Shown one piece after another: positions 2,761-48,530 of a DNA stretch of 64,000 nt (positions are counted from its first letter, which is position 1; each line of letters begins with the position of its first letter). The notes below the pieces were generated by a model. The model ran no database searches. It saw only the letters and a list, made by a program, of their open reading frames with translations, and was not told where the DNA came from. The DNA is from Isoetes taiwanensis. Taxonomy: Eukaryota; Streptophyta; Lycopodiopsida; Isoetales; Isoetaceae. The stretch spans positions 2,162,282 through 2,226,281 of the forward strand of contig JAJEKV010000112.1 in NCBI GenBank assembly GCA_021234155.1, given 5' to 3'. A program made the translations under genes and the position numbers.

Positions 2761-3030
2761 ACCGGGAGGTGCACAAAGAAAGAGGTTGGTAATATGAACC
2801 ATTGAAAAAGGTGGGACATTGAAGCCTGCAAAAGTTCAGCTAAAAGCTGATGATAATGACGCACCACCACACGACCACGATGCCGATTATAAGCGGGATG
2901 CCGGTATCAATAGAAAATAAGAGAAACCCTCCGAAAGGGCTACAATGTATCAGCATGCAGCGCTAGCAGCACCCATTGGGAGCTCGCCCATGTTACATCA
3001 GTCCGGGGGCCTCAGGGCACTAGGGACAAT

Positions 3031-3529
3031 AATTCTAATCTAATTCAAAGAAAAATTTCCTCCCTTCAAACTTTATGAGATGTCTTGAGTTGATATTATC
3101 GAGCCAAAGAATCGATGGTCAACTAGAAACCTCATCAAGGGACGACAACTTGCATGCAATTTGGCGAATCCAAGAATCGACAGTTCGAAGGACAACTAAT
3201 GAAGAGAACAACTCCCTAGCCAAAGGAACTGCGCACAACTTCAAGGGGCGCCTCTAAATAGCTTCAAACATCGTGTAGGGGAAACAATTAATGTCCGAGA
3301 TCAAGCTTAGGAAGCAGACCAGAACGCCAAAGCATTAATGATTGTCACATCCGTAGTAGAGTGTGAAGCAAAGCGTATGGTGCCATAGCCAACAGACATT
3401 GGAGAGCTCAAACATATCAAAGAGTCTACCAATTGAGCACGAGCCGATGTACAAATAAGAGGATATAGATCTTCAACACCAGCGCACTAGGAGGAATATC
3501 GACAACACTGCCATGGAGTACATGTGCAC
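3031..3529. other. Unassigned flank of the gypsy insertion
   Basis: No gene recognised. The sequence is interrupted after TGCAC at 3,525-3,529 by the retrotransposon and resumes at 11,297. Confidence 0.5.
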
Positions 3530-8100: not shown

Positions 8101-8747
8101 TTATTCCATCCATGCTTGATGTCAAAATCAACATCTCTACTTGATCTTGATCAATACCTTGCTGAAATAAAGTCTCACTAATGGGTCTTTGAATGGACTC
8201 CTCCTGCATGTTTATAAGAATCTCTTGTAACTCACCTTCACCAATACTTTCAAGTCTTTGGATATACTTATCTACAACTTGCTGCTATAAATGACATATT
8301 TCTGAATTTTAGGTACCTTTTAACCACTTGTACAAAGTCTTAGCTTCCCTGTCACCCACTTCCAAGACATGAAAACAACTAAGACCTTGCTGCCCTGACA
8401 CCATAGCATTCTCTTTGCTGATTTCTAACTGCGGGCTGCTCAAAGAAGGATTGCAAAGAAAGGTACCTTTTGCTGATTTCAGAGGATGATCTATAGTAAC
8501 CTTGTGTTCTCCTTGAAAGATGTTCATTTCGCGCTTCCTCCATGAAGTCTCAGCTTGTACGACATCTAACCATGTACGACTCAGCAACAAAGTATAAGTT
8601 TCAGCATGCACACTCTCTGGAAATTTCAAAACCATGAATCCAAGATTGCTTTCACCTCATAGACCTTGCATAAGACATTTCTTATGACTCCCATGGGCTG
8701 CATCTTCATTTGATTGAAGGCTTTGAGCATCATAGTTGTCGGTTCCA
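8101..8747 (-). pseudogene. Gypsy protease-RNase H connecting region
   Basis: A minus-strand frame at 8,635-8,309 continues the protease-like fold with a YTLLLSRTWLDVVQAE stretch. This corresponds to the conserved LLGRPWL segment after retroviral-type aspartic proteases. The frame is broken from the DTGSG-containing part by a shift at about 8,650-8,750. The rest to 8,101 has no identifiable domain. Confidence 0.65.
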
Positions 8748-9623
8748 TCATTTTAATCCAACTTGAAGCATTATATGGTAAGGCATTACATTCACTCCGC
8801 TGCCGGTATCTATGTTGGCGTCTTTGATTAAATATCCATTAATACTCACATCACAAAGAAATGGCCCTGGATCCTTGGATTGCCGGGCTGGTGGCTCCAT
8901 TCTACTCTTATTGGTATCATTTGAGATGATTTGTTGGACTGAAATTTCTGATTTTGTTCTTCCCCCTAACTCTTGCAACAAATTTGGAGAATAATGCATC
9001 AATTGCTCCAGAGTAAGTGTAACTTCAGTGGCCAAAACTTGGCTGATCACATCATCTTCATTTTGAATTTCCTCATCCACCATAGGAGGCATCACTATGG
9101 GCTGATTTTCTTCTATAGACTGAAACTGTTCTGTGGGCAGCACATTGAATTGCACCTTCTTAGGTGCTGATACCTGTCCCTTCAAAGCCTTTGGAAAAGA
9201 GGTCTTAGTCTTCTCCGCAATTGGCACTACTCTTGGTTCTTGCACCACCTTTTGTGATCTTTTAACCGCATTTACTTCTCCAATCTCTTCTTCTTGCTGA
9301 AATGGGTCACTGTCTATCTCAACGAATCCACAATTTACTACTGATTTTGCCTTCTCTTGCTTCTTAAGCTCCTCAATAAGAGCCTTAACTTGAGGATTAT
9401 CAATGTACTTTGCATCTTGAATACGAACATCATTATTAGGAAGAGGTACTGATTCAAACACTTGCTGCTTTGGTGGATACTTGTTGGTTGCCCATTCTGG
9501 TTTCCCATGTCTCATCATGCTTGAACTTATCACATAACTTGCAATATAAATGAGCCTTACTTGGATACCATCCCTGTTTTGGCTGCACCATTGGTGTGGA
9601 ACCCATTGGAACTTGTTGAGCAA
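8748..9623 (-). pseudogene. Gypsy gag-pol linker and aspartic protease
   Basis: The frame ends with the active-site stretch ANIDTGSGVNVMPYHI (DTGS motif) near 8,800. That identifies an aspartic protease which would cut the polyprotein. The preceding ~200 residues are a charged, low-complexity linker with no known domain. It overlaps, in another frame, the Pro/Gln-rich segment at 9,454-9,768. Confidence 0.8.
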
Positions 9624-10030
9624 TTGGAGCTTGTGGCATCATTGGAACTTGTGGTATGATAGGTGCTGCTTGCATTGGTTGAATAGGAATAGGTGGTGCT
9701 TGTTGCATAACAGCAAATACCGGATTGGCTCTCTCAAAGAATCTCTTCTCCCTACATTCTTGAATCATTATGGCCCTTGATTTGGCATCTTGAGCAGAAT
9801 TTCAGCAATCTACATGTAGTATCAGAATGTCCAATAGACCCACAATACTCACAAGTAATAAACTGCACCTCCCTTGGCTTCTCACCAATTGTAAGCTTAG
9901 AAATCTTGGCTGCAATATCCTCTGTTTTATGCTCTGAGGCAGCAACGTCATGAATGTATCCCAGCTTATCTTCAGCCTTGAGAGTATACTTTTGTGCCTC
10001 TAGTAATGTTGTAGGCTGTTTGGCCTTCAC
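9454..10030 (-). pseudogene. Gypsy gag zinc-knuckle region
   Basis: A CEYCGSIGHSDTTC knuckle (CX2CX4HX4C) lies near 9,840, followed by a second one, CSRCQIKGHNDSR, whose last Cys is reached only through a frameshift near 9,765. After it comes a Pro/Gln/Met-rich tail (PIPIQPMQAAPIIPQVPMM). The knuckles would bind the genomic RNA. Confidence 0.85.
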
Positions 10031-10045
10031 CTTATGAGCAATAGC

Positions 10046-10738
10046 TCATTTCAGCCCCTTCACATACCATTGAATATCTATTTCATCACTCCTTGCAATC
10101 TTCCAATGAACTACGGCTTTGAGAACCGCAATATACCTCTGATTATACTCTCTAATTGATTCATCTTCCTTTTGTGTGAAATTAGTCCACCTTTCCATAG
10201 TCTTATCCTTACCATGAACTTCTTGATAATTAGCAATGAAAGCTTCCTTTAATTCCTGATATATCATGGTATCTGGCTGAGTTTGTGCCCATTCCTCCAC
10301 TGAATCTTGCAAAGAACTATGAAACCAAAGCAAGTAATCAACAGCTGGTAACTTACATTGCTGGCAATACCTCTCAAAATTCACAATATGCTTCAAAGGA
10401 TCCCGATCCACCAGATCATCAAACTTTGGAATGCCCATTCTCTGAAAACCCCATACCATAGGTGGTAATACAGCCATCTCTGCCTCTTCTTGGGTTTCTT
10501 GAAATTGGAAAAACGAAATTGAATCTCCCTTCAATTTGAAAAACGAAATTGGATTACCTTCTAGATCGGTAAATGGAATCAAAACCTCCTGGATTTGAGA
10601 ATTAGACCCCAGATCTGCTGCCAAATCTGAAAACGAAATTGAATCTTGATGCAACTTTAAGCCCAAAGATTGACTCACCGGTCCCTTTCTTGTTACGATA
10701 GAGCTTGGTGGTATATCCTTCTTACTTCTCTTGGGCAT
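10046..10738 (-). pseudogene. Gypsy gag capsid-like domain
   Basis: A 230-codon frame starting MPKRSKKDIPP. Its second half fits the plant retrotransposon gag domain: DPLKHIVNFERYCQQ, then YLLWFHSSLQDSVEEWAQ, then ELKEAFIANYQ, and FTQKEDESIREYNQRY. Imperfect internal repeats (two to four copies of a SISF-containing motif) occur near residues 30-75. The frame stops at 10,046, just before the zinc-knuckle part, which is in a shifted frame. Confidence 0.85.
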
Positions 10739-10908
10739 AAAACTATGCTCTCCTTGTCAAATTTTGCTCCGCAAATCACTTACGGCAAAATCCCCTTCAC
10801 ACAAAGAAATTGTTCCTTCCTCAATGGTGTCGTTCTTTACCGACGATCACCAATTCCAATAGTAACAACTCCCTTTTTAATGAAAATTCTTGCTGATCAA
10901 TGGTCTGT

Positions 10909-11296: not shown

Positions 11297-12076
11297 CTCG
11301 AGGGGAGACACTAAGGGGACCTAATAGCTTTAGTAGTATTTGTAATCGTAATGGCGTAAGCTATACGCCTTGCATGCATATTCCCCTTGTTATTCCCTCC
11401 CTCTTACAGTGTAATAGATCAAAGAAAAGAGATGCCAGACAATTTGAATGCATGAAGCGAGCGACATCCTCAACATTCATCTGGGAATATGCTACTAGCA
11501 AGAGAAGGACTTGATGATGGAGTGTCATAACAATATCCGATCCAGAGGCATCCTTTAGCCGCCAAGATGAAGAATTCAACGTGGAGGATGTTTGTCAATG
11601 AAACTACCTTCAGAGGTTTGGAAAGTGAGGTAGAAGCTTTCAAGTGGTCAACCACGCCATCAAAACCACTGAGGCCTCTAAAGAAGAAAGTTGACCTCTA
11701 CATCAAAAGGAGCCTGGAGTCTCAAGCAACTAAAGAACATTACCTTGCTGCTTCAAGAAGGCAACGAGGGGATGAGCTACTAGCAAGATTGAGGAGCTAC
11801 GATCATATAGTCGAATAAAGCAGGATTTTGTTAATTAGAGAAATTTGGTTTTCTCAATCGACAATGAAATAGGTCGCAGTACCCTCCTGGAAAGGGAAAA
11901 TTTGTTACTGTCAAGCAAATTGCAATGGCACTGAGCACACTTTTCGGTCGCCATATTTTTATCTGTGGGAAAAGCACTTATGGGCATGCCTTCACTGTGT
12001 TGGAATACAAAACTTAGAACATGCATAATGTCAACTGAGTGCAAGCTTTATGGGAGGAGTTTAACATCATTTCCAG
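11297..12076. other. No recognised gene
   Basis: Resumes the sequence broken by the gypsy insertion. One plus-strand frame at 11,567-11,818 (83 codons, charged C-terminal half) has no recognisable motif and no supporting context. Confidence 0.45.
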
Positions 12077-12132
12077 ATTACTGAACATGTCGAGAAGATC
12101 GCGATGGCGATCTTCCCGACAAGTTCAGTAAT
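12077..12132. repeat. Fold-back hairpin H1 (ATCGC-N4-GCGAT family)
   Basis: Two 26-bp arms pair with only two mismatches around the four-base loop GATG. The loop-proximal core is AAGATCGC/GCGATCTT. It lies about 230 bp beyond the stop of the methyltransferase-like gene. Confidence 0.9.
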
Positions 12133-12172
12133 ACTATTCGGAGTTATATCCACAACTTTCGGAAAATAATAG

Positions 12173-12275
12173 ACAAGGTCATTATTTCTAATCGGTAAAA
12201 AAAATGTAAGAAAATATAATACACAAGGTCATTATTTCTAATCGGTAAAAAAATGTAAGAAAATATACACAAGCT
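12173..12275. repeat. Direct repeat, two copies of about 53 bp
   Basis: The unit starts AAGGTCATTATTTCTAATCG, continues with GGTAAAAAAA and ends TGTAAGAAAATATA. It occurs twice in tandem with small indels. Confidence 0.8.
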
Positions 12276-14303
12276 CAAAAAAAGCAGAATAGTTTTATAA
12301 TATTTCATAATCTTTACATGATGTTTCACATCCAATAAAGCTAAAATACTTCACTAACGCCGAACTATTGAGTCTCTTTCACAGAATCTGGAGTAATGCC
12401 AAGTTCCTTGGCCATTCTATCTGCATGTTCCTTTCCTGCTGCAAGGGTCTGTGAGAGATTCATTTCGGAATATCCTGTAACCGAAGGGATCTCTACGTCC
12501 ATTGCATTGGCGATATCCTGCACACGCCCTGAGCACTATGTGTCCAACAATTCCTCCCATAGCTCACCAGCGAATTCAGACGTGCCCAGTAATCTCCTTC
12601 TCTTGCTTCCTTCAATCTTTTCTGGCCCTTCAAACTGAGAGTCGGCTTCAGAGGTACCCACCTATTCAAACTGGATAGATTGTTTGTTGATCATATCAGT
12701 TATTAATGGCATTGCCATTTCAAACTTCTGGTTCAGTACCTCGAGCTTTTCGAATGTTTTATCAAGTGCAGCGGAGTCCCTTTCCGTCTTCTCTAGCAAC
12801 GCCTAAGTTTCCTGTAGCCTCTCTGCAAAGCCTTTCTGATATAACTGGTCCACGATCGTGTCCATGTTACTTAGATCAGTCTCTTGAGTTATCTTGAGGT
12901 CCAAAACGTCTCCAGCGTTAGGGACTTCTTTCTGTTCCTCTTCTTCTTGTTCACAGTCTGGCCTTGCCATTTTCTCTAAGGTCTCGAAAAACGATCTAAA
13001 AAACCTGCAGACCTTATCGTCATACTCCAAGGAAACGCTATGTTTCCCTTGCATTAAAGCCACTCTAGAAGCTGTCCCCGCGGAAAAGAAGTCAAGAACA
13101 ACACCATCATCGGGAACCAACTCCTTGACCATGGCGTAAATATACGATGTTTTAGCCTGACCTTTGAGAACAAAATCCCCTTCCATTGCTGCCCATGAGA
13201 ACTTTGGCTTACCTGTGAAGTATTCCTGATATTTTTTCTTTGTTTTTGCGTCCACCTCCTCATTACCTGTGATTGGATACTTTGGAAGAAGTGTGCCTCT
13301 TGGTGCATTGGTCCCCTGAGTTAGACGAAGCTCCAACCTGGGTTGCACAGGCAAGATACGCACCTCACTTCTATTGATCGTCACATGGGTGACGTAGTAT
13401 TGAAATTCCGTAACCATTTTCTTGCTAACCCAGCCTTGTTCTTCATAAGCACCCATGGAGACATGCGAACTCCCCTGGATCTGACTTTGGCTGAACAAGC
13501 AGTTTGGCAAGTGGACTGATCTCAAGAACAAGACGATGTGATACACCTTTGCAGTTGTCATGCTTGCTATCCTGCGTATATTTTCAATGATCTGTGTATT
13601 TTTTCACTTCCCACACAGTGTTGAAACTGCGCATATCAATGAAAACCATTGTAGCATTTTTTGATACTTGTCCCCACACAAGAGTACCAGATTTAGTTAC
13701 CACTTTAATAATGTTTCTCTTTTCTTTCTGTTTCTGCTTCTTCGGGTTTGAGTATAGCTAGAATAGCTTCTAAGAAAACAGTGGGAAGATTTTCCTGGAC
13801 GTGATCCTTGTTATAGTTGGCCTTGATATAATCAAAATCCATACCTGCTATATCAAGTAGCCTCTCTTCATTGAGTTTAAGGAATAGTGCCACAAGCTCC
13901 TCCATGCTGCCGTATTTTTTATCTAACAACCAATTGGCATATGATAGTACCTCACGGTGCATCAAGGTCAGAGTTCTGATGTCTAAGGCCCTCTGCTTAC
14001 AGTCATGCCTGCCGGTATATCCAGATGCACCTTCAAATATGTCTTTCCCGCTAGAATCTCATCCATTGGTTGGGCTACCTCCGCATTATTCATGCCACAA
14101 AGGTACCTGAGAAATGTTTTATTGAAAAAAACTTTTGTTGGCTTCTCTGGCAGTTCTCCATGATCATCTGATAGCTTCCGTGCTGCCAACTTATTTACAA
14201 CCTCCATGAACTTTGCCCATGGTTCGTCGTGCATAAAGAGAAACTGCTTTTCATCTTTAAGTTCTTTGACCTTCAATGTAGTGGTGGCGACTTCAACAAA
14301 ATC

Positions 14304-14367
14304 CTGCAATGAAATGCTCATTAGGATCGCGGTCGCGATCTGTTTCAGCAAAAAGTGAGTAGGCTAC
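14304..14367 (-). other. 64-bp intron containing hairpin H2
   Basis: Donor AAG/GTAGCC and acceptor TTGCAG/GAT join AWK to DFVEV in phase 0. The middle of the intron is the palindrome GATCGCGGTCGCGATC (14,325-14,340). Confidence 0.7.
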
Positions 14368-14716
14368 CTTCCAAGCTGATGTCACTGCTGTGCCCGTTGC
14401 TCCCTGTGGAGGGCAACCGAAAGCCTTGTGCTGATTACGCAATTGTTGAAGCTTCTCCACAAGTGGCTCTCTGTACACAGTGTCTGCAATTATGTCGTTG
14501 CATTGAATAGATAATTGGATGTACTCCCTGTTGGACATGTTTCCATTGAGCACCCGCGTTCTTCTCTTGGCGTAAACTTTTGCAAATTCCAAGCGTTGTT
14601 CAACGCTGCCCATCACAGAGCAAAGGATCTGAGCAACAAATATACTGTGGTTTCCAGAAATAATGTAAATTTTTTTGTTTTGAAGCTCCTCAGGTCTCGA
14701 CCAAGTAATTATTTTT

Positions 14717-14780
14717 CTGCGAAAGAAAATAATTTAGTATTTTAATACATGACAGTAATGTATGTATACAAAGTACTTAC
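14717..14780 (-). other. 64-bp intron of the methyltransferase-like gene
   Basis: Donor GTAAGTAC and acceptor TTTCGCAG. Removal keeps the frame open from DPITK into ITWSRPEELQN and on to the next block. Confidence 0.7.
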
Positions 14781-15612
14781 TTCGTGATGGGGTCAAAAGG
14801 CACAACATCTGCCGGTGTAAGAACCTCTGTAGGGCACTTCTTGAAGCTCCTTATTAGAGTTTGCACGTGGTCGTTAGAACGAAATATGTGCGTCATTGTA
14901 GCTGGAGCTGTCTCGCAGTCGAAGATACTTACTTTTGTGAACCAATTCACCCCCATGGGATAAAATTTTCTAAACTCTTCGAGTTTTTGTGCTGTTTGTT
15001 CTGCAAGTTTTTTTTCCTCAGCAGGGTTGAACTTGAGTTCCTCAGACATACGAATATCAGAAGGCCAAGTTATTGCAGTTGAAGTGGCAGTTGGGACACC
15101 TGATGAAGTAGGCGTAGATGATGAAGAAGGCTGGTTCTAATCATCTATATTTAACTTCTGTAGTCTAATCTTGAAAGTACCTGTCTTCTTTTGTACTGGT
15201 TCATCCTTTTGACTAGACTATACTATAGGGGGAGGCATGAGCAATTTTGGAGCAGTAGGATCTACAACTGCTGAGGATGTTGGATTAGCAGAGCAGGTCA
15301 TAACTGGATCTTTTGGTGCAGATGATTCACCAACTGCAGCCAATAGAGCAACAATCCTTTTCTTAGCAACTGCACGCAACCAGTTTGTATCCATATGCGA
15401 GGGTAGCTTGTTGTCCTTAGTAGCCTTTAAGGCACAAGAAGGAGGCTTCTTATCTACTGACAATCCCTTTCTGCACTTGCTGAAGCCCACAAGAAGATCT
15501 TTGTTGCACTTAATACCAGAGAGAGACAAAGAATCATATGATGGCAGAATCCAACCATAGCCCTTTGCACTCGTTGGCAAACTCTTGCCACTAGCCGGCT
15601 TGTTCACTTTGC

Positions 15613-15679
15613 TTGCGACCATGATGGAGGGTTTAGGGTTTATGGTCACATGTTTGTTTAAGGTCCATCATGGTCGCAA
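15613..15679. repeat. Inverted repeat with perfect 16-bp arms
   Basis: TTGCGACCATGATGGA at 15,613-15,628 pairs with 15,664-15,679 around a 35-base spacer. It sits between two coding blocks of the methyltransferase-like gene. It does not share the exact ATCGC-N4-GCGAT core. Confidence 0.85.
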
Positions 15680-16012
15680 TCGCAGGATGTACTCTACAAA
15701 CTGCAACTGCTGCGGGTCCTCTATGCTACATATAATGGCATCCTGCACGTTATTCTTCGTACCCTCCCACATGGCTACGATGATGCCCAACTGTTCAAAG
15801 TCATCTGGGCCCTTTCCTGTCCTGAAAAAGAGGCAGAGATCCTTCCTGCGGTCCCCTTTGATATGCGGTATCGCCTGGGCAATTTCCATGCACCACTTCT
15901 GACTTTTGTCGGGAGTTACTGTGCGCATGGGTTCAACATTTGGCCCTCGGAAGAGGTCAAGTGCTGCATGAAGTTGATTAAGAAGGTCAATAAACATCTT
16001 AAAACAAAAGAG

Positions 16013-16044
16013 CCTCGAAGGAATGCGAGCGCGATCCTTGGAGG
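16013..16044. repeat. Fold-back hairpin H3
   Basis: 14-bp imperfect arms (CCTCGAAGGAATGC pairing with GCGATCCTTGGAGG) around GAGC. The left core has drifted to AATGC. Confidence 0.7.
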
Positions 16045-16060
16045 TCTTTGTCCTCAGAGA

Positions 16061-16076
16061 AATCGCGGCCGCGATT
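16061..16076. repeat. Palindrome H4
   Basis: Perfect palindrome AATCGCGGCCGCGATT. The outer arms beyond it barely pair. Confidence 0.8.
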
Positions 16077-16192
16077 AGTGAAGACACTTGAAACCTCTAT
16101 TGTATAAAGAGTGAAGCAAGTAAACATTTTAAAAAAGTGCTGGCAAAGAACGCGACCATGATTCTTGGAAGCAATGCAAACAAAAAAGTTCC

Positions 16193-16244
16193 AGTGTTAT
16201 GTTCTGAAGGATCGCGACGGCGATCCTTCAGATAATAAAACACT
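16193..16244. repeat. Fold-back hairpin H5
   Basis: Arms of 23-25 bp with a small bulge pair around the loop GACG, core GAAGGATCGC/GCGATCCTTC. Confidence 0.88.
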
Positions 16245-16256
16245 AGATGTTATTAT

Positions 16257-16302
16257 TATAGTGCTCTCAGAAATCGCGGCCGCGATTTCTTAGAGCACTA
16301 TA
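16257..16302. repeat. Fold-back hairpin H6
   Basis: 21-bp arms with one mismatch pair around GGCC, core GAAATCGC/GCGATTTC. The arm sequence (TATAGTGCTCT) is unrelated to that of H1 or H5. Confidence 0.92.
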
Positions 16303-16323
16303 AACCTTAAGTTCATAGATATA

Positions 16324-16361
16324 GAGATCGACAGGATCGTGATGGCGATCCTGCCGAGCTC
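16324..16361. repeat. Fold-back hairpin H7
   Basis: 17-bp arms with three mismatches pair around GATG, core CAGGATCGT/GCGATCCTG. Confidence 0.85.
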
Positions 16362-16549
16362 TTTTCATTGAAATTCTAAGATGCAAATAGTGTCAATTGA
16401 CTAGTGCTAAAAAAAGCGCGGAAATTACCTTCTTTAAGGGCAGCTGATCGAGACATGAAGGGCTGGTTTTTTTCCGAAGGCGCTAGATTTTCCGAAGGTG
16501 CAAGGAAACTCTAACTAAAAAAATCGCGAAGCTTAAGTAGGCTGGAGCC

Positions 16550-16745
16550 GCCCGCCATAAATGTCCTCCCATAAATGCCTGGTCATAAATGAACGTCATA
16601 ATTGTAGATGTCAGACTCGCACGTGCGCAATTAATTCCGCCGGCGGCCCTCATAAATGCGTTGTACTACATGCCTTCTCATTAATGCCCTGACATAAATG
16701 CACCTGACATAAATACACTTGTCTATAAATTCACGCATGAGAAAT
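16550..16745. repeat. CATAAATG repeat cluster
   Basis: The motif CATAAATG or CATAAAT recurs about eight times at irregular spacing, mixed with CATTAATGC variants. No gene is seen. Such short dispersed repeats are common near transposon ends. Confidence 0.65.
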
Positions 16746-17224
16746 GCCCCACGGCATTAAGGAGGCGGTGAAAAGTTAGTACCCGTCAGACAGAAAATTC
16801 CCTTCAGACAGAGACGGCCTACGGCTGTCGGAATGTACCTTGTACAAAATGTACGATGACTGCGACAGGGAGAGTCCTTGTAATTATGGCGTTTATAAGA
16901 GGACATTGATTTGAATTTTAAAAAGAAATTTGCCCGCCCATGCCCATGTCAAGAGCAATTCATTCCAAACAATTTCAGAAGGAATTAGTAGCTCAGGCAC
17001 TCGGGAGATTTCCACAGAGGCGCAAGGGAGGTGGCTGCTGGCGCTCACCAAAATTTAGCATCTGAACGACATATAAGTGGCCAATACAGGCAAGAACCGA
17101 AGTCTACTTTAGGATTTGATATGCATATACAAATTTACTGTTCGAATTCATGCTTTTGTTGCATTCTTCTTGTTTTTAGGACAGTAGTATTCTTCTGCAT
17201 CATTTCGTGGATAGATTAATTACC

Positions 17225-17550
17225 TTCGATTGCATTCTTCTATTCCATGAATTGTTATATGCTTTTAAAAGGTCTGTATAGACTAAATCCATTCTGCTAA
17301 TGCATTCTTCTAGTGTTTAGACTAGTAGTATTCTTCTGAATGATTTGTTGCATGAATTTGATCAGTCATCCTCAATTGCATTGATCTATTCCATGAACTA
17401 TTTTATGCGTTCAATAGGTCTATCTATAATAATTCCATTGTTAAATGCCTTTAATAGGTTTGCCTACAATAAGTCCATTCTGTTATATGCCATTAATAGG
17501 TCTGTCTATAATAATTCCATTATGCTATATGCCTTTATTAGGTCTGTTGC
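17225..17550. repeat. Degenerate tandem repeat, about 55-bp unit
   Basis: Four to five copies of a unit containing TATGCCTTTAATAGGTCTG, then a TATAATAA stretch and TTCCATT follow each other with substitutions. No coding capacity. Confidence 0.7.
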
Positions 17551-17738
17551 TTTTTTATGAACTTCCTTGCTGCATAGTTGAAATGCCCGTTGCTGCATAA
17601 AGGAAATGCACGTTGCTTGATCATGTTAGAGAACATGTTAGAGAACGTGCAACATATCGGGACCTTTTTAAAACACTTCATTTTTTGTACAGAAGATTAG
17701 GACAGTTCAACATATCGGGAGTTTCCGTCTGTTCAACC

Positions 17739-17756
17739 AGATCGCGGTCGCGATCT
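17739..17756. repeat. Palindrome H8
   Basis: Perfect palindrome AGATCGCGGTCGCGATCT. Outer arms pair poorly. Confidence 0.8.
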
Positions 17757-17825
17757 AAGGCAACAATCTTAGAGTATCTGCCTCTTACTGGACCGTCATT
17801 AGGTGGCTCTATTGTGGACCGTGAG

Positions 17826-17861
17826 TGCTGAACCAGATCGCGGTGGCGATCTAACGCAGCA
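17826..17861. repeat. Fold-back hairpin H9
   Basis: 16-bp arms (TGCTG at the base, AGATCGC at the loop, four mismatches between) pair around GGTG. Confidence 0.8.
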
Positions 17862-17907
17862 GTTTCCAGGTGTGTTGACTAATCCCACCAAGACATTGGC
17901 AGATAGT

Positions 17908-17941
17908 GCTCCATAAAATCGCCACGGCGATCTCTTACAAC
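17908..17941. repeat. Fold-back hairpin H10
   Basis: Core AATCGC-CACG-GCGATC with weakly paired outer arms. Last member of the family, 50 bp before MITE 2. Confidence 0.65.
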
Positions 17942-17989
17942 ATACCATTTTGTTTTTATGTCAGGATGGACCAATTGAGGTCTATTTTA

Positions 17990-18264
17990 GGGTGAAAGCA
18001 TGCTAGGGCCTACATAAAAAATTACCAAAAAGGTACTTTTCTGTGTACTTCTGTGCAAGTACATAATTGTATTTTAAAGTACCTAGACTACAAGATTGGC
18101 TAAAAGAAATTGTGTTATGTTCAAGAGTAGTAGTACATAGATGTTGTAAGGTACCTTGTGATGTCAAGAAGATGTTAACAACTCAAATATATCATCATCT
18201 TTGACTACCCAGAGTATTTTCCAGGTAGTTTCCAAAACATGTAGACCCTAGCATGCTCTTACCC
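17990..18264. mobile_element. MITE 2, 275 bp
   Basis: Inverted ends of about 26 bp: GGGTGAAAGCATGCTAGGG on the left and GGGTAAGAGCATGCTAGGG read from the right. Flanked by TTTA at 17,986-17,989 and 18,265-18,268. Noncoding. The TIR start, length and 4-bp target match MITE 1. Confidence 0.85.
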
Positions 18265-18283
18265 TTTATTCAATGGGACGAAG

Positions 18284-20140
18284 GTGGGGGAGGCTCGTCT
18301 ACACAACTTCACAAAGCACCATAACTTGCCCTTGCCCGAGGGTTTCGCTGTAGTGTCTGTGGAAGCCATTCTTGATGGGAGCATTCCGTTGCCTTATTCA
18401 GAACCCGAGATTTCAAATCTTGGAGAGTCCAGAGGGAGTTTTATTTTGTGGCTCGAGAGAGATGTGACTGAGCTTGAAGATAACACTGCCATCTCCACTC
18501 CACCTGCACAGATAAAGAAGCTGAATTGGTTGTCGTTGGAGGATCCCACTACTCCATTTGGTTCACTACATCATCCTGGGGGTATTTCTAGGGAAGAACT
18601 TGTCGAGAGTAATTGCACACTTTTGCATGAATGCTGTGATATGCCTTATGGCTTCAGTGTGATCATCTTTAGCGATCCTAATCAAGCAGTTGCTGATACT
18701 AGATTAGGTGATGACTTCCTGGCTGCCACCTTGATGAAGCTATGCCCCATGCCAGAAAGACTGTCAATGAGATGCCAAGCTTGTGCTGAGATGTCACAGT
18801 TGCACGACTTTGTGAAGTGATCGAATGCTTTGGTATTAGGAGACAATGTTGCTGTCTCGACACTCATAAAGACTGTCAGAGAGACAGTCATTGAAGCAGA
18901 ACCCTATGCCATGCAAATTGAAGTCGAAAAGGCACCCAAGAGGATGTACAGAATGGTGAACCGGACTCCACGTAAAGTTGCTGTGACCACTAAAGCCCAG
19001 AGAAAGATCACGACAGCTTCCATTTTAAACTTTACATCTTCGATTTGTTGCATGAGAAGATGCTGCGCAAACGTCTCAACAGCCGAGATTATGTGCACGC
19101 GTACTTTCTTTTGGAACTTGAGTGCTTCAGACAGGACAACATTTGTTTTTAACATGTCAGACGTTTGTTCAGATAACGGACAGGTCAGGATGCTCATGCT
19201 AAATAACAAGCAGGTTTGTTTGAAAGCATGGCATATAGCCTATGGCATTCCAATGTCCACTTTCTATAAGTGGCAAAGACTTTTCCTTGCTGGTCACAGA
19301 GTTGCTGAACATGGTAACACGGGCACGAAAAAACCAAGGTCTCACACTCTAGCAGGGAAGGCCGTGCTGTCTATGTACATAGATGAGAACGCTGAGACAA
19401 TGCCCCACAGATCGAAAATCACTACTGAAGGCGTGAGAGAGAATGTGAAGAGGATCCCCTCTGTCCTAACCAAAAAAGACATTTTTCATGAGGTGAACGC
19501 CAATGTGATGGAGATGACAGGCAAGCACATCTCTCATTCTTCATTTTCACGTGGGTGGAAGCTAAATCACAACGAGGTTGCAATAGCAAAGAGGATAGCT
19601 TTCTCTAAGTGCAATACCTATATTGTAATAAAAGAGAAAATGACTAAGACGAGAGATCCAAGGGAGAGAAGAGAATTGCAGATTGAAAGGAAGGCACACA
19701 TGACTGCCCAGATATCTTGTAGGAGCTTGTAGTGGTCATGGAGAGCTCTGTCCCATCGATCACCGGATCAGGCGCTCACTATCATACATTATAAGATGGA
19801 CCAAAACAAGACTATGATTCCAAGACTGGAAAAATTAGCAAAGTCGGTATGGAGAGGTGAACGCTTGAAAGTTAGTGTGACTGGTGCACTGATGCATGGC
19901 CATGGAACAGGTGCATTGGGACATTTATCACTCGACCTTTGAAAGGATGATTCAAACTTTCATGTTGGTTCCTTGAATCATGCTATCAAAACACTGGAGG
20001 ATGCATCCGAAGATAATTGGGGTCATTTGAGAGAACAAGGTCGGCCTGAGGGCATGTGGGTCAATGCACTCCTCGATAGTGCAGGGTTGAGGACAAAAAA
20101 AAGCAATTGCACTGGACAAGACTTTGTAGCACCTCCTAAG
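18284..20140 (+). pseudogene. Transposase-like pseudogene with helix-turn-helix segment
   Basis: One plus-strand frame runs from 18,284 to about 20,140 with in-frame stops at 18,818 (TGA), 19,730 (TAG) and 19,939 (TGA). The N-terminal part (GFAVVSVEAILDGSIPLPYS, then SRGSFILWLERDV) resembles the DUF8039-like domain of plant En/Spm-type proteins. The middle has QVCLKAWHIAYGIPMSTFYK followed by AEHGNTGTKKPRSHTL, a helix-turn-helix-like block. The last third has YKMDQNKT and VSVTGALMHGHG then DSNFHVGS, which I take as the DDE-type catalytic region. Because one frame persists over ~1.85 kb, decay is mostly by point stops. I infer a transposase; the superfamily is uncertain. Confidence 0.65.
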
Positions 20141-20149
20141 CAACCAGTG

Positions 20150-22093
20150 CACTTCCTCTGCATCTTCATGGCTACAACTGAGCCTCCAACTTCTGCATTG
20201 GTCTAGGAAAGATTGTCTACTCTCTGGGCTTAGATGCTTCTTTGTTTGCCTTTGCAAACACCGTTCAAAGTGGAAAACACATGATCTTTCCTTTTCTGAA
20301 TTTGGCTCGCCTCCGAAGAAGACTTCTCGGACGGCATTCCAATTTGCCTGGGCCTCGTCAGCCATAAATCCATGGAATTGTGCTGGTGGAAAGCCCTTAC
20401 TTTTTAGCACTTTGTTCATTTTTCTCCAGAACTTCTTTTGAGATTCTACATCCTCCGCTGCATCCTTATGTATCCTAGTAAACAATATAGATACAATGGA
20501 TATCTTTGTGCAATAAATATATTTTATAATTAGGTGTAGAAAATATACTCACATGGGATCATATACATGACAGGCCATTGTTGTCACCCAGTTATTCGCT
20601 TAACATGATCAAAATGCAACCATGAGGTTGCCGAATCTCCTGACGGACTCATTCGGTTCACCAAATCCATGCCCGAACCAGCCCCAATAGTTGACATCTT
20701 AAAGAAATAGCACCTCTCATGTTGAGTGTCATGCAACTGGTCCGGAAACTTTGAACCATGGAAGAACTCGTAACAACATCTTCTTTTTAAATACAACATG
20801 CTACTTAGCTCATCTTGGCATTGGCGATTTCTTTTTCTTGCATCATCTCCACTTCCTCAACCTAGCACATACAAAAGAAGAAGAAGCTTAGTTTACAACA
20901 ATGGAGAAAATCCACACCTTAAAGCTCACCTTCTTTGATTGCATAGTGGTTCCAGTCGTAGCAATAGAACATCTACTTGTTCGGTGGTCATTTTGTTTAT
21001 GTCTTCAACATCCACTTCCAGCAATATGCTTCTACATATTTCTTCCATAGCAATATTATTCTGAAGCTGCCTTGGAGCCATGTGCACAACTGAAGTTGGA
21101 GTACTATCAATAATGCTTTTCATTTCTCTTAATTTCCAATCTTGAAAGTGCACTCCTGATTGGATGGGAGTGGGTGCTTGTGTGTATAGCAAGTCTAGTG
21201 TCTAAGATACACTTTGGAAGACAGTAATATATAGTAGCATCACATAGTGCAATACAATATGGCTGCTCCTTGCAATATGTGCAACTTACTGAACCATGCT
21301 CATCACTTATAGGCCCAACATCTGGTCAGATATTCATAGAGCCCCTACATTGAATGGAATTATGCTCCCCTTTACTAAGAAAGTAATCACAACAAGGATT
21401 TTGGCATTGCAGATGGCCTCCACAATATGCAAGCCTCACTGTGCCATCTAATGCATGGCTATATGTTGTCCACATATGAGGATCTTGATTTTGCTGCATA
21501 CCGTCCATGCTACCTCTTGTTTCCTGTTGGCTTGGTAATTCCAACACTACTTTGCCATCATAGTAAGGGGGCAAACATGTTACATTTACTGACTCCTTTA
21601 CTTCCGTGAGTATCTTCTTTAACTTGCTATTACCACTCCGTAACAACATCTTTTTGAAGGTTGAGTTGCAACCTTTTAGGGACTCTGGAGATGATGATTC
21701 TGAGTCTATATTTATCACTCTACTAGGTTTGTCAGACAACAAACCACTATATACCATCACATTGTTGCCAAAGCATTCCTCTACAATATAACAACGCTTG
21801 CCTCCTTCATTCACAGTTTCCTCTAACACGTTGCTCAGAAAGTTTGGACCATAGCCACTCTGAACAATACATAAAGCATCCTCTGCAAATTGGAAGAAAG
21901 TTGCAAGAGCATTACTATCCAGAACGCATTTCCCATTGAGGAAAGGCATAGACATTTCTTGATCTCTTTCCCATGCCTTCACTATAACGCGAGTAGCCAT
22001 ACAAGAAGAACTCAAACAAGAACTCAAATAAGAACTCAAAATTCTAGACACAATGCGCGCATAATATACATAAAGGATAAAATAATATACCAT
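20150..22093 (-). pseudogene. Second transposase-like gene, zinc finger plus catalytic region
   Basis: Reading leftward, the first block (22,093-21,326) contains the Cys-rich segment YCGGHLQCQNPCCDYF and a following SIQC. The next block (21,192-20,926) has an IAMEEICRSILLEVD stretch. A third (20,799-20,584) ends LHFDHVKRITG. A 78-bp GT-AG intron (20,475-20,552) joins HVYDP to the final block, which reads FHGFMADEAQANWNAVREVF and later RSCVFHFERCLQRQTKKHL. The ADEAQANWNA and CxFHFE motifs recur at 63,030. Frame changes at about 20,590 and in the zinc-finger tail mark it as decayed. The 3' end meets the plus-strand pseudogene head-on near 20,150. Confidence 0.65.
20475..20552 (-). other. 78-bp intron in the second transposase-like gene
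   Basis: Donor GTGAGTAT and acceptor TTTACTAG. Splicing joins YDPM to IHKDAAED in frame. Confidence 0.7.
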
Positions 22094-25590: not shown

Positions 25591-25770
25591 CGTCGCGGCG
25601 CCATTTTTTTTTTTTTTTTTCGTCTCAGACGCTTTTTTTTTTCTTTTTGCGTCGCTGAAAAATTTTCAGCGACGCTGTTTTTTTTTTTTTCCGGCCGGCG
25701 AGGTTTTAATACGTTAAATACGTATTTTATTAAAAAATACGTATTTTTTGACTTTATACGTCAGGAATTT
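25585..25770. repeat. GCGTCGC/poly-T palindrome block
   Basis: Four GCGTCGC-type motifs alternate with T runs. The 13-base arm GCGTCGCTGAAAA at 25,649-25,661 pairs perfectly with 25,663-25,675. Next comes TACGTATTTTATTAAAAAAT, then TACGTATTTT, also self-complementary. Confidence 0.75.
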
Positions 25771-45234: not shown

Positions 45235-45385
45235 GACGTCGCTATAACAAAAATATCGTTACGGACATCGCCGCATGCGACGTTAAACCGTATATACGAT
45301 TTTGAAATCGTATATACGATTTCGAAATCGTATATACGATTTCAAAATTACGTCGCATGCGACGTCGCGACGTCGCATGCGACGC
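45235..45385. repeat. Internal palindrome cluster with 20-21-bp tandem repeats
   Basis: TCGTATATACGATTT-type units repeat three times (45,285-45,345) and are flanked by GCATGCGACGT and ACGTCGCATGC in inverted orientation. The whole block can fold on itself. Confidence 0.8.
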
Positions 45386-47308: not shown

Positions 47309-48290
47309 TGTGGGACCCCGTGCGAATTGATGCAATAGCTACAAGCTTGTTCCTGGACAATGAAGCAAGCAAATAAGCTTGGGGCCCTGGTGCCAAAGTG
47401 GGATTTATGTGTGCATGATAATGACCGATTTTTCACTTGGGCCAAAGTAATCGTCCCATATCTTTTGAGAAAAACGACCATTAAGATATTGTTGCAAAGC
47501 TCGGGATCGAATCGGCAAGCATCGGGCGATTATTCGCTGTTTACCCCAATAACGGGCAAACCATGTAGTGCAATGCTCTTTCCAACATCGTTTCAAACGC
47601 TAAGGAGATTCAGCCATGGCAAGTGCAAGAACAGGATACCTAACATCGTCCATGTGGTGCATCTTGCAGATATAGTGGAGATGGCGCTTCATGGCAGAAT
47701 GTTGAAGAGGCCAAAAACCTGTCTCTTGTAAAAGAATAGCATAGGGCACCGTTGTTTTAACTCCAAGGCTGTAAGTGAGAAAGGACTTTTGCACCCGCTC
47801 CAAGCTCTCCCAAGCACTAGCACTAATGGCATGCCCCCACACTTCGTAACCATACAAAAAAAAAAGTCTACCAAAGCCCAAACAAGTGGGCTTTCCGTGG
47901 CCAATCATGAATTTCTGCGCGAAAACAATTGTTTTGCATTGCATAGAGTGCTCTCCATCCAGCAGCTACCCGCTTGGTAATACACTGTTCCCAGAGTGTG
48001 TTCTTACAGAATTCTACACCAAGATACTTGTAGCTATCTACAACTTCAACTTTGCGGCTATCATAGTGCATAGAGGGAACATTGTGACGAGAAGATTGAA
48101 CTACCAAAAGCTTGGTCTTTTGCAGATTAACACGCAGGCCTGTGTTCTCACAGAAACTGTGCAGAGCATGTAAATGTTGCTGCATACTAGCAGCGGTATG
48201 TGCCAGAAGTGAAACATCATCAGCATACATAAGTTGCCTAATGATATAGTGTGCCAAATATGCTTCTAGACAGCCCACATTGAATGTTAA
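47309..48290 (-). pseudogene. LINE RT fragment (copy 2, right of the CACTA insertion)
   Basis: Starts inside RT with RQLMYADDVSLLAHT (catalytic YADD), then LRVNLQKTKLLVV, VDSYKYLGVEF, AGWRALYAMQNN, LERVQKSFLTYSLGVKTTVP and finally NKLVAIASIRTGSH at the CACTA border. The 5' side is truncated at about 48,290. Frames shift at about 47,900, 47,600 and 47,450. With 39,320-39,770 it forms one element. Confidence 0.88.
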
Positions 48291-48530
48291 GCTTCCTGTT
48301 TTAAGCTACGCATATGTATGGATAGATAGAAGCATATACTAGCAAGGGATCTGCAAAATGAAACTTTGAGTATACATGCTAGCAAGGAATCTTCAAGATA
48401 GCCCAAATGTGGGATCTGCAAGGAGGAAGAAATGCCAAACAAAACTTCAAGTATATTAGCAAGGGATCTTGCCAAACAGAACTTCAAGTATGCTTCTAGA
48501 TAGCCCACATTGATCATGAATCAGCCAGTA
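48291..48530. repeat. CTAGCAAGGGATCT direct repeats flanking the LINE
   Basis: Three to four units containing ACTAGCAAGGGATCT and CTTCAAGTAT, plus two copies of GCTTCTAGAYAGCCCACATT. Related sequence lies at 39,240-39,320, so the LINE went into this repeat. Confidence 0.65.

Follow-up and report, generated by a model that had tools for sequence, protein, structure and literature searches.

Phased palindromes inside a Sola1-like DNA transposon of Isoetes taiwanensis as candidate self-recognition sites

The closest published relative of the transposon described here is Sola1-1_Ec32 of Ectocarpus, in which a gene on the opposite strand encodes a ParB-like and N4C/N6A methyltransferase protein proposed to bind and modify its own transposon (PMC12477816); ParB-like domains fused to an N6_N4 methyltransferase are common in phages (PMC12704722). 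A functional precedent comes from the VANDAL transposons of Arabidopsis, whose VANC proteins are element-encoded, sequence-specific DNA-binding proteins with an anti-silencing role and a motif that differs between related families (PMC5735166). Transposon ParB-methyltransferase proteins have been suspected to act on their own element, and the open-access papers searched describe no target. We analysed a 64,000-nucleotide stretch, hereafter the window, of the lycophyte Isoetes taiwanensis (GCA_021234155.1, contig JAJEKV010000112.1, positions 2,162,282 to 2,226,281), in which a degraded DNA transposon carries a set of long palindromes with a common core. Thousands of such long, phased, lineage-specific palindromes adjoin ParB/methyltransferase-like genes in this genome, providing a concrete candidate target. 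They probably serve as sites, specific to the lineage and comparable to operators or parS, at which a DNA-binding protein encoded by a Sola1-like transposon with terminal inverted repeats (TIRs) recognises its own element.

Like Sola1-1_Ec32, the Isoetes element is a large TIR DNA transposon with a second gene, weakly ParB/methyltransferase-like, on the strand opposite the transposase; unlike it, the element resides in a lycophyte, and the catalytic motif is degraded in the window lineage. No mention of palindrome arrays was found for Sola1-1_Ec32 in the open-access text searched. With VANDAL/VANC it shares lineage-specific motif arrays in non-coding DNA, but VANDALs are Mutator-like and use a 9-bp non-palindromic motif (YAGTATTAY), whereas here the motif is a dyad of ~36 bp accompanied by a candidate ParB/methyltransferase-like protein. 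The parS site is a palindrome, and as in ParB-parS the palindromic site is present in several copies, although ParB similarity is weak here and a match to the parS sequence is absent. Repeated short sites inside a TIR transposon also recall the subterminal transposase-binding repeats of hAT, CACTA and P elements; in contrast to those, the present sites are long palindromes, mostly central between divergent genes, with none found at the right end. The kind of host element is already known; the palindrome arrays appear new, judged on the open-access literature.

A scan for ATCGC-N4-GCGAT, allowing at most one mismatch, returned 11 matches in the window against 0.6 expected, every one of them at 12.1–17.9 kb, and none of 100 shuffled windows attained that number. 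The matches at 12501 and 15870 have asymmetric arms, lie in or close to coding sequence and are probably due to chance. Two more diverged cores in the array, at 16022 and 16149, were found beyond the one-mismatch scan and join the remaining nine matches to give 11 real palindromes at 12.08–17.94 kb. An earlier note on this DNA had counted at least ten palindromes within 5.9 kb and none elsewhere in the window, and both observations stand for this family; the note had not recognised the enclosing TIR transposon with its tandem units of ~62 bp.

The palindromes share more than their centre. A second common box, TGCT/AGCA, sits 8–11 nt outside the core, about one helical turn away, and the combined pattern TGCT-N7-ATCGC-N4-GCGAT-N7-AGCA fits eight of the 11 window palindromes with at most three mismatches (0.05 expected). 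The half-site derived from 67 non-redundant hairpins is A-n-T-G-C-T-c-(variable)-R-ATCGC; counting outwards from the core, its most informative position is 8 (T in 76%), followed by 11 and 10. In lineages 63–92% identical to the window, identity is 0.88–0.96 in the core and 0.42–0.55 in the linkers, and conservation has mirror-image peaks at positions 3, 8 and 10. Because the outer box is common to the hairpins, their arms are not unrelated, contrary to the earlier claim; orthologous hairpins also share arm sequence across copies. The GATC and CGCG formerly read into the core are likewise not conserved, since the central four bases vary as S-R-Y-S. N2-N3 favour R-Y, and no covariation or pairing among the four was detected beyond that preference, which suits a bound dyad.

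The individual palindromes, none of which is assigned a strand, fall into several groups. Palindrome 1 (12077–12132, core 12098–12111) is subterminal and has 26-nt arms that are 92% paired. Palindrome 2 (14313–14352, core 14326–14339) lies within the minus-strand gene and matches the two-box consensus exactly. Palindromes 3 (16009–16048, diverged core AATGCGAGCGCGAT at 16022–16035), 4 (16049–16088, core 16062–16075) and 5 (16136–16175, diverged core AACGCGACCATGAT at 16149–16162) are followed by the lettered members of the 62/63-bp array, palindromes 6, or C (16198–16237, core 16211–16224), 7, or B (16256–16303, core 16273–16286), and 8, or A (16323–16362, core 16336–16349, ATCGTGATGGCGAT). 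Further along are palindromes 9 (17728–17767, core 17741–17754), 10 (17824–17863, core 17837–17850, again an exact two-box match) and 11 (17905–17944, core 17918–17931). Long self-complementary arms, noted before, were recovered for palindrome 1 and for B (24-nt arms, 96% paired), and shorter ones for C (16203–16232) and A (16323–16362); the description does not extend to the hairpins with cores at 14326, 16062, 17741, 17837 and 17918, where only 6–9 of 20 arm positions pair.

All of these palindromes are internal parts of one degraded transposon of ~10–12 kb, with its left end at 11818. DNA near 14.3 kb has at least 40 copies in the genome at 79–97% identity; 13 copies align across most of 11.8–18 kb, two of which continue to 20152. 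The copies compared are a sample of those in the genome, and the assembly may collapse repeats. The left boundary (AAGCAGGATTTCGTTAATTAGAGAAA) is sharp in all copies, with flanks that are unrelated from copy to copy, and coincides with the left TIR at 11818–11845 on the plus strand (AAGCAGGATTTYGTTAATTAGAGAAA). Ten right ends were read, the complete ones ending in ...TTCTCTCCAATTAATGAAATCATGCTT with divergence beyond, and the common left and right end sequences thus identify TIRs of ~25 bp, both containing AAGCA(G/T)GATTTC(G/A)TTAATT. This 19-nt pattern has 600 exact matches (305+295) in the genome (1,658,258,908 bases, 1110 contigs) and none for the reversed control. Target duplications of 4 bp flank all five copies in which both ends could be read (AATT, AATA, ATAT, TATA and TAGG), which fits the 4-bp duplications reported for Sola2 (PMC3627910). 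Both the duplications and the TIRs agree with the Sola1 superfamily, and the element is tentatively called Sola1-like. A near-complete copy (C1032) is ~12 kb long. The window copy is damaged: its homology to other copies ends at 20152, so that the right part and right TIR are missing there, and it has lost a second subterminal palindrome that other copies carry 107 bp closer to the end. A small inverted-repeat element of 277 bp (17989–18265, no strand) was inserted later and is lacking in other copies.

The core has 6001 occurrences genome-wide, where the reversed control has 518; it is clustered and not confined to this locus. Palindromes are carried on units of ~62 bp (43 spacings of 62 and 22 of 63), and between copies these units have been gained, lost or made chimeric (L017, L060–L062). 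The overall layout is nevertheless conserved, with palindrome positions kept even in element families that are 60–72% identical: two palindromes lie near the left end, 107 bp apart, one falls within the accessory gene, several cluster in the space separating the divergent genes, and three precede the transposase gene. High copy number would also be produced by an ordinary miniature inverted-repeat (MITE) or fold-back family that has spread through the genome. The individual palindromes, however, have no TIRs, target duplications or independent insertions of their own, and their positions are fixed inside one larger element across copies, which rules out such a family and bears out the view that they are not simple copies of one element. 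Chance palindromes are ruled out by the window shuffles and by the two-box expectation, and we give either origin almost no credence. Several element copies or partial arrays also lie within tens of kilobases of one another (G000:C1090:1474–1504 kb, C1006:359–403 kb and C1100:1880–1900 kb), and in C1006 a palindrome array comes back about every 3.4 kb.

The element has two divergent genes. On the plus strand, the N-terminal part of a DUF7869 transposase-type gene occupies 18265–20152, with the gene start at ~18.25 kb; Pfam places DUF7869 (PF25273, E=1.3e-20) in the C-terminal part of this gene as read in a fuller copy, and found this domain instead of a MULE domain, for which it gave no match. 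Approximately 9,900 DUF7869 candidates in the genome indicate a very large transposon group. The minus strand carries a degraded ParB/methyltransferase-like accessory gene (12372–16096) as broken open reading frames (ORFs) at 12803–13603, 13705–14058, 13983–14363, 14293–14733, 14777–15136, 15218–15667 and 15668–16096. Among close pairs of DUF7869 and methyltransferase-like genes, 24 of 25 are divergent, with 0.3 pairs expected by chance, and most are ~7.2–7.6 kb apart. The methyltransferase-like gene was present at all seven core clusters sampled.

We favour the ParB/methyltransferase-like minus-strand product as the putative binder, with the transposase second, because ParB-type proteins recognise palindromes, because every sampled palindrome cluster of the family adjoins its gene, and because in VANDAL/VANC, too, related elements have evolved different motif arrays. 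A dimeric protein of this kind would contact both half-sites from one face of the helix and so load onto its own element. The sites may have been multiplied by tandem duplication of the ~62-bp units, both close to the left end and in the region of the divergent promoters, and several phased sites could allow cooperative, element-specific binding. Through such binding the element might methylate itself, counter silencing or regulate its divergent promoters. The earlier note had tied a possible recognition-site role to the methyltransferase-like gene, and this putative role is now the best reading of the locus.

Several findings weigh against this assignment. The C-terminal region of the accessory product resembles N6_N4_Mtase only weakly and below the cut-off (E~0.02), the ParB model TIGR03764 is matched in sister lineage L091 alone (E=0.0021, weak by sequence), and AlphaFold models of the protein, with a mean pLDDT of ~40, are of too low quality to be informative. 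Motif IV is an intact DIPY in L091, whereas IFVDMRS replaces DPPY in the window lineage; with the canonical catalytic motif lost, methylation by that lineage's protein is doubtful. In addition, arm pairing extends past the two-box motif, which a plain dimer site does not need. Other similarities of the accessory product are a PHROG DNA methyltransferase (E=0.018), M.RsrI in the PDB (weak, E=0.47) and a ParB-like stretch, ‘SGNHS..A’; the ParB and methyltransferase domain calls are weak by sequence and lean partly on the Ectocarpus parallel. A search of viral contigs with a ParB-like ORF of a sister lineage found no relatives.

The sites could instead be bound by the transposase for synapsis and transposition, as are the subterminal repeats of Ac, Spm or hAT. 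The pair of palindromes 107 bp apart, which several diverged families have 0.1–0.3 kb inside the left end, and the DUF7869 gene at palindrome-bearing loci of both lineages are what such a role would predict. We consider it unlikely, as cores are absent near the right end in the two copies scanned there (L029 and L030) and the bulk of the sites occupy the centre of the element, between divergent genes, an unusual position for synapsis sites.

Recognition by a protein would account for the boxes; the pairing of the arms beyond them required separate consideration. Within hairpins, 7.87 of 20 arm positions pair, whereas the composition at each position predicts 6.60 (permutation sd 0.25), so the comparison with chance that had been suggested for the arms comes out above expectation. 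Compensatory change was examined in the three orthologous array hairpins B (16273), C (16211) and A (16336), with controls in which the pairing register was slid by offsets of -3 to +5. Where the left base had changed, the pair was kept in 57% of cases in B (slid controls 9–29%), 42% in C (8–33%) and 13% in A (0–27%). On the tree, double changes from one Watson-Crick (WC) pair to another numbered 10 in B (controls 0–3), of which five stem from the frame-shifted L064, an indel artefact, leaving five; C had 10 (controls 0–1) and A one (controls 0–2). L033 and L035 provide clean swaps of C:G to T:A and G:C to A:T.

These double changes, together with the within-hairpin symmetry above what the motif predicts, are the case for supposing that pairing itself is selected, the arms forming DNA cruciforms or RNA hairpins that the element requires. 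Against it, hairpin A shows no excess and has a fixed C:C mismatch next to the core in 21 of 29 sequences, changes from WC to broken pairs (21–27 per hairpin) outnumber the double changes, and many sites remain weakly paired. G-T and A-C mismatches did not exceed the permutation expectation in any hairpin set, G-T being tested on both strands. With no preference for G-T wobble, dyad symmetry of the DNA explains the sites better than a hairpin in RNA, and RNA structure is rejected. Strict selection for pairing is weakened by the restriction of the excess to B and C, and required pairing is, in our estimation, improbable. Of the earlier suggestion that selection maintains pairing, what survives is some compensatory change in B and C.

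The coordination between arms is real but modest, occurs at the DNA level in some hairpins and does not imply an obligate hairpin. It can arise from a preference for symmetric sites, from template switches that copy one arm into the other, or from exchange between tandem units. The last two could make arm symmetry a mutational by-product in which quasi-palindrome template switching and unit exchange copy the arms and only the boxes are selected. The tandem 62-bp units, their chimeras and their gain and loss between copies are in keeping with this, as is the mapping of part of the coordinated arm changes to one and the same branch. Since it leaves the conserved mirror-image boxes and their spacing unexplained, we regard it as a somewhat doubtful account of the whole, though the mechanism is compatible with sites bound by an element-encoded protein and would then explain why the arms pair beyond the boxes.

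Long palindromes also accompany DUF7869 genes outside this family. Each of four sampled loci without the ATCGC-N4-GCGAT family (L089, L090, L091 and L092) has long palindromes that differ from it in sequence, with none in shuffled controls. L091 and L092 have several copies of AGGCCAAAGTGTATTCCGGAATACACTTTGGCCT in common, which in L092 lie between the divergent genes. The AAGTGTATTCNNGAATACACTT palindrome family (L091:1374–1485 and 3025–3058; L092:2759–3059) occurs at 3039 places in the genome against none for the control, often with 41–43 or 83–85 bp between copies, and the L091 methyltransferase-like ORF with the intact DIPY adjoins it. L090 has repeated GCGCAGCTGCGC palindromes, and GTATAAATTTATAC-type palindromes are found in both L089 and L090. 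The pattern, from four loci only, is one palindrome type per lineage. We tentatively propose that land-plant Sola1-like transposons have a parS-like system of their own, in which a phage-derived ParB/methyltransferase-like protein and co-evolving, lineage-specific arrays of phased palindromes might let each lineage restrict tagging, de-silencing or regulation to copies of its own. Together with VANDAL/VANC, this would make two cases in which plant transposons have evolved address labels private to themselves. Should the protein prove to methylate or de-silence DNA at the sites, plants would possess an epigenome-editing module that is sequence-specific and prokaryotic in origin.

Other palindromes and mobile elements were noted along the way. 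Outside the ATCGC-N4-GCGAT array, the window has tandem perfect palindromes of ATTTCGAAATCGTATATACGATTTCGAAAT type and CGTCGCATGCGACG at 45285–45384, near which no DUF7869-type ORF was recognised and an Rfam search of 39–48.5 kb gave nothing; two further palindromes, GCGTCGCTGAAAAATTTTCAGCGACGC and AAATACGTATTTTATTAAAAAATACGTATTT, lie in an unannotated stretch at 25649–25746. Near the right end of the C1100 copy (L029:1707–2722), a stretch of ~370 bp encodes an ORF of ~98 aa, is duplicated in the element and has ~2,500 candidate matches in the genome. Directly left of the transposon, a degraded long terminal repeat (LTR) retrotransposon on the minus strand (8309–10756) retains a gag domain (Pfam Retrotrans_gag, E=1.1e-8), and a reverse-transcriptase fragment (Pfam RVT_1, E=3.4e-9) is present at 47871–48305, also on the minus strand.

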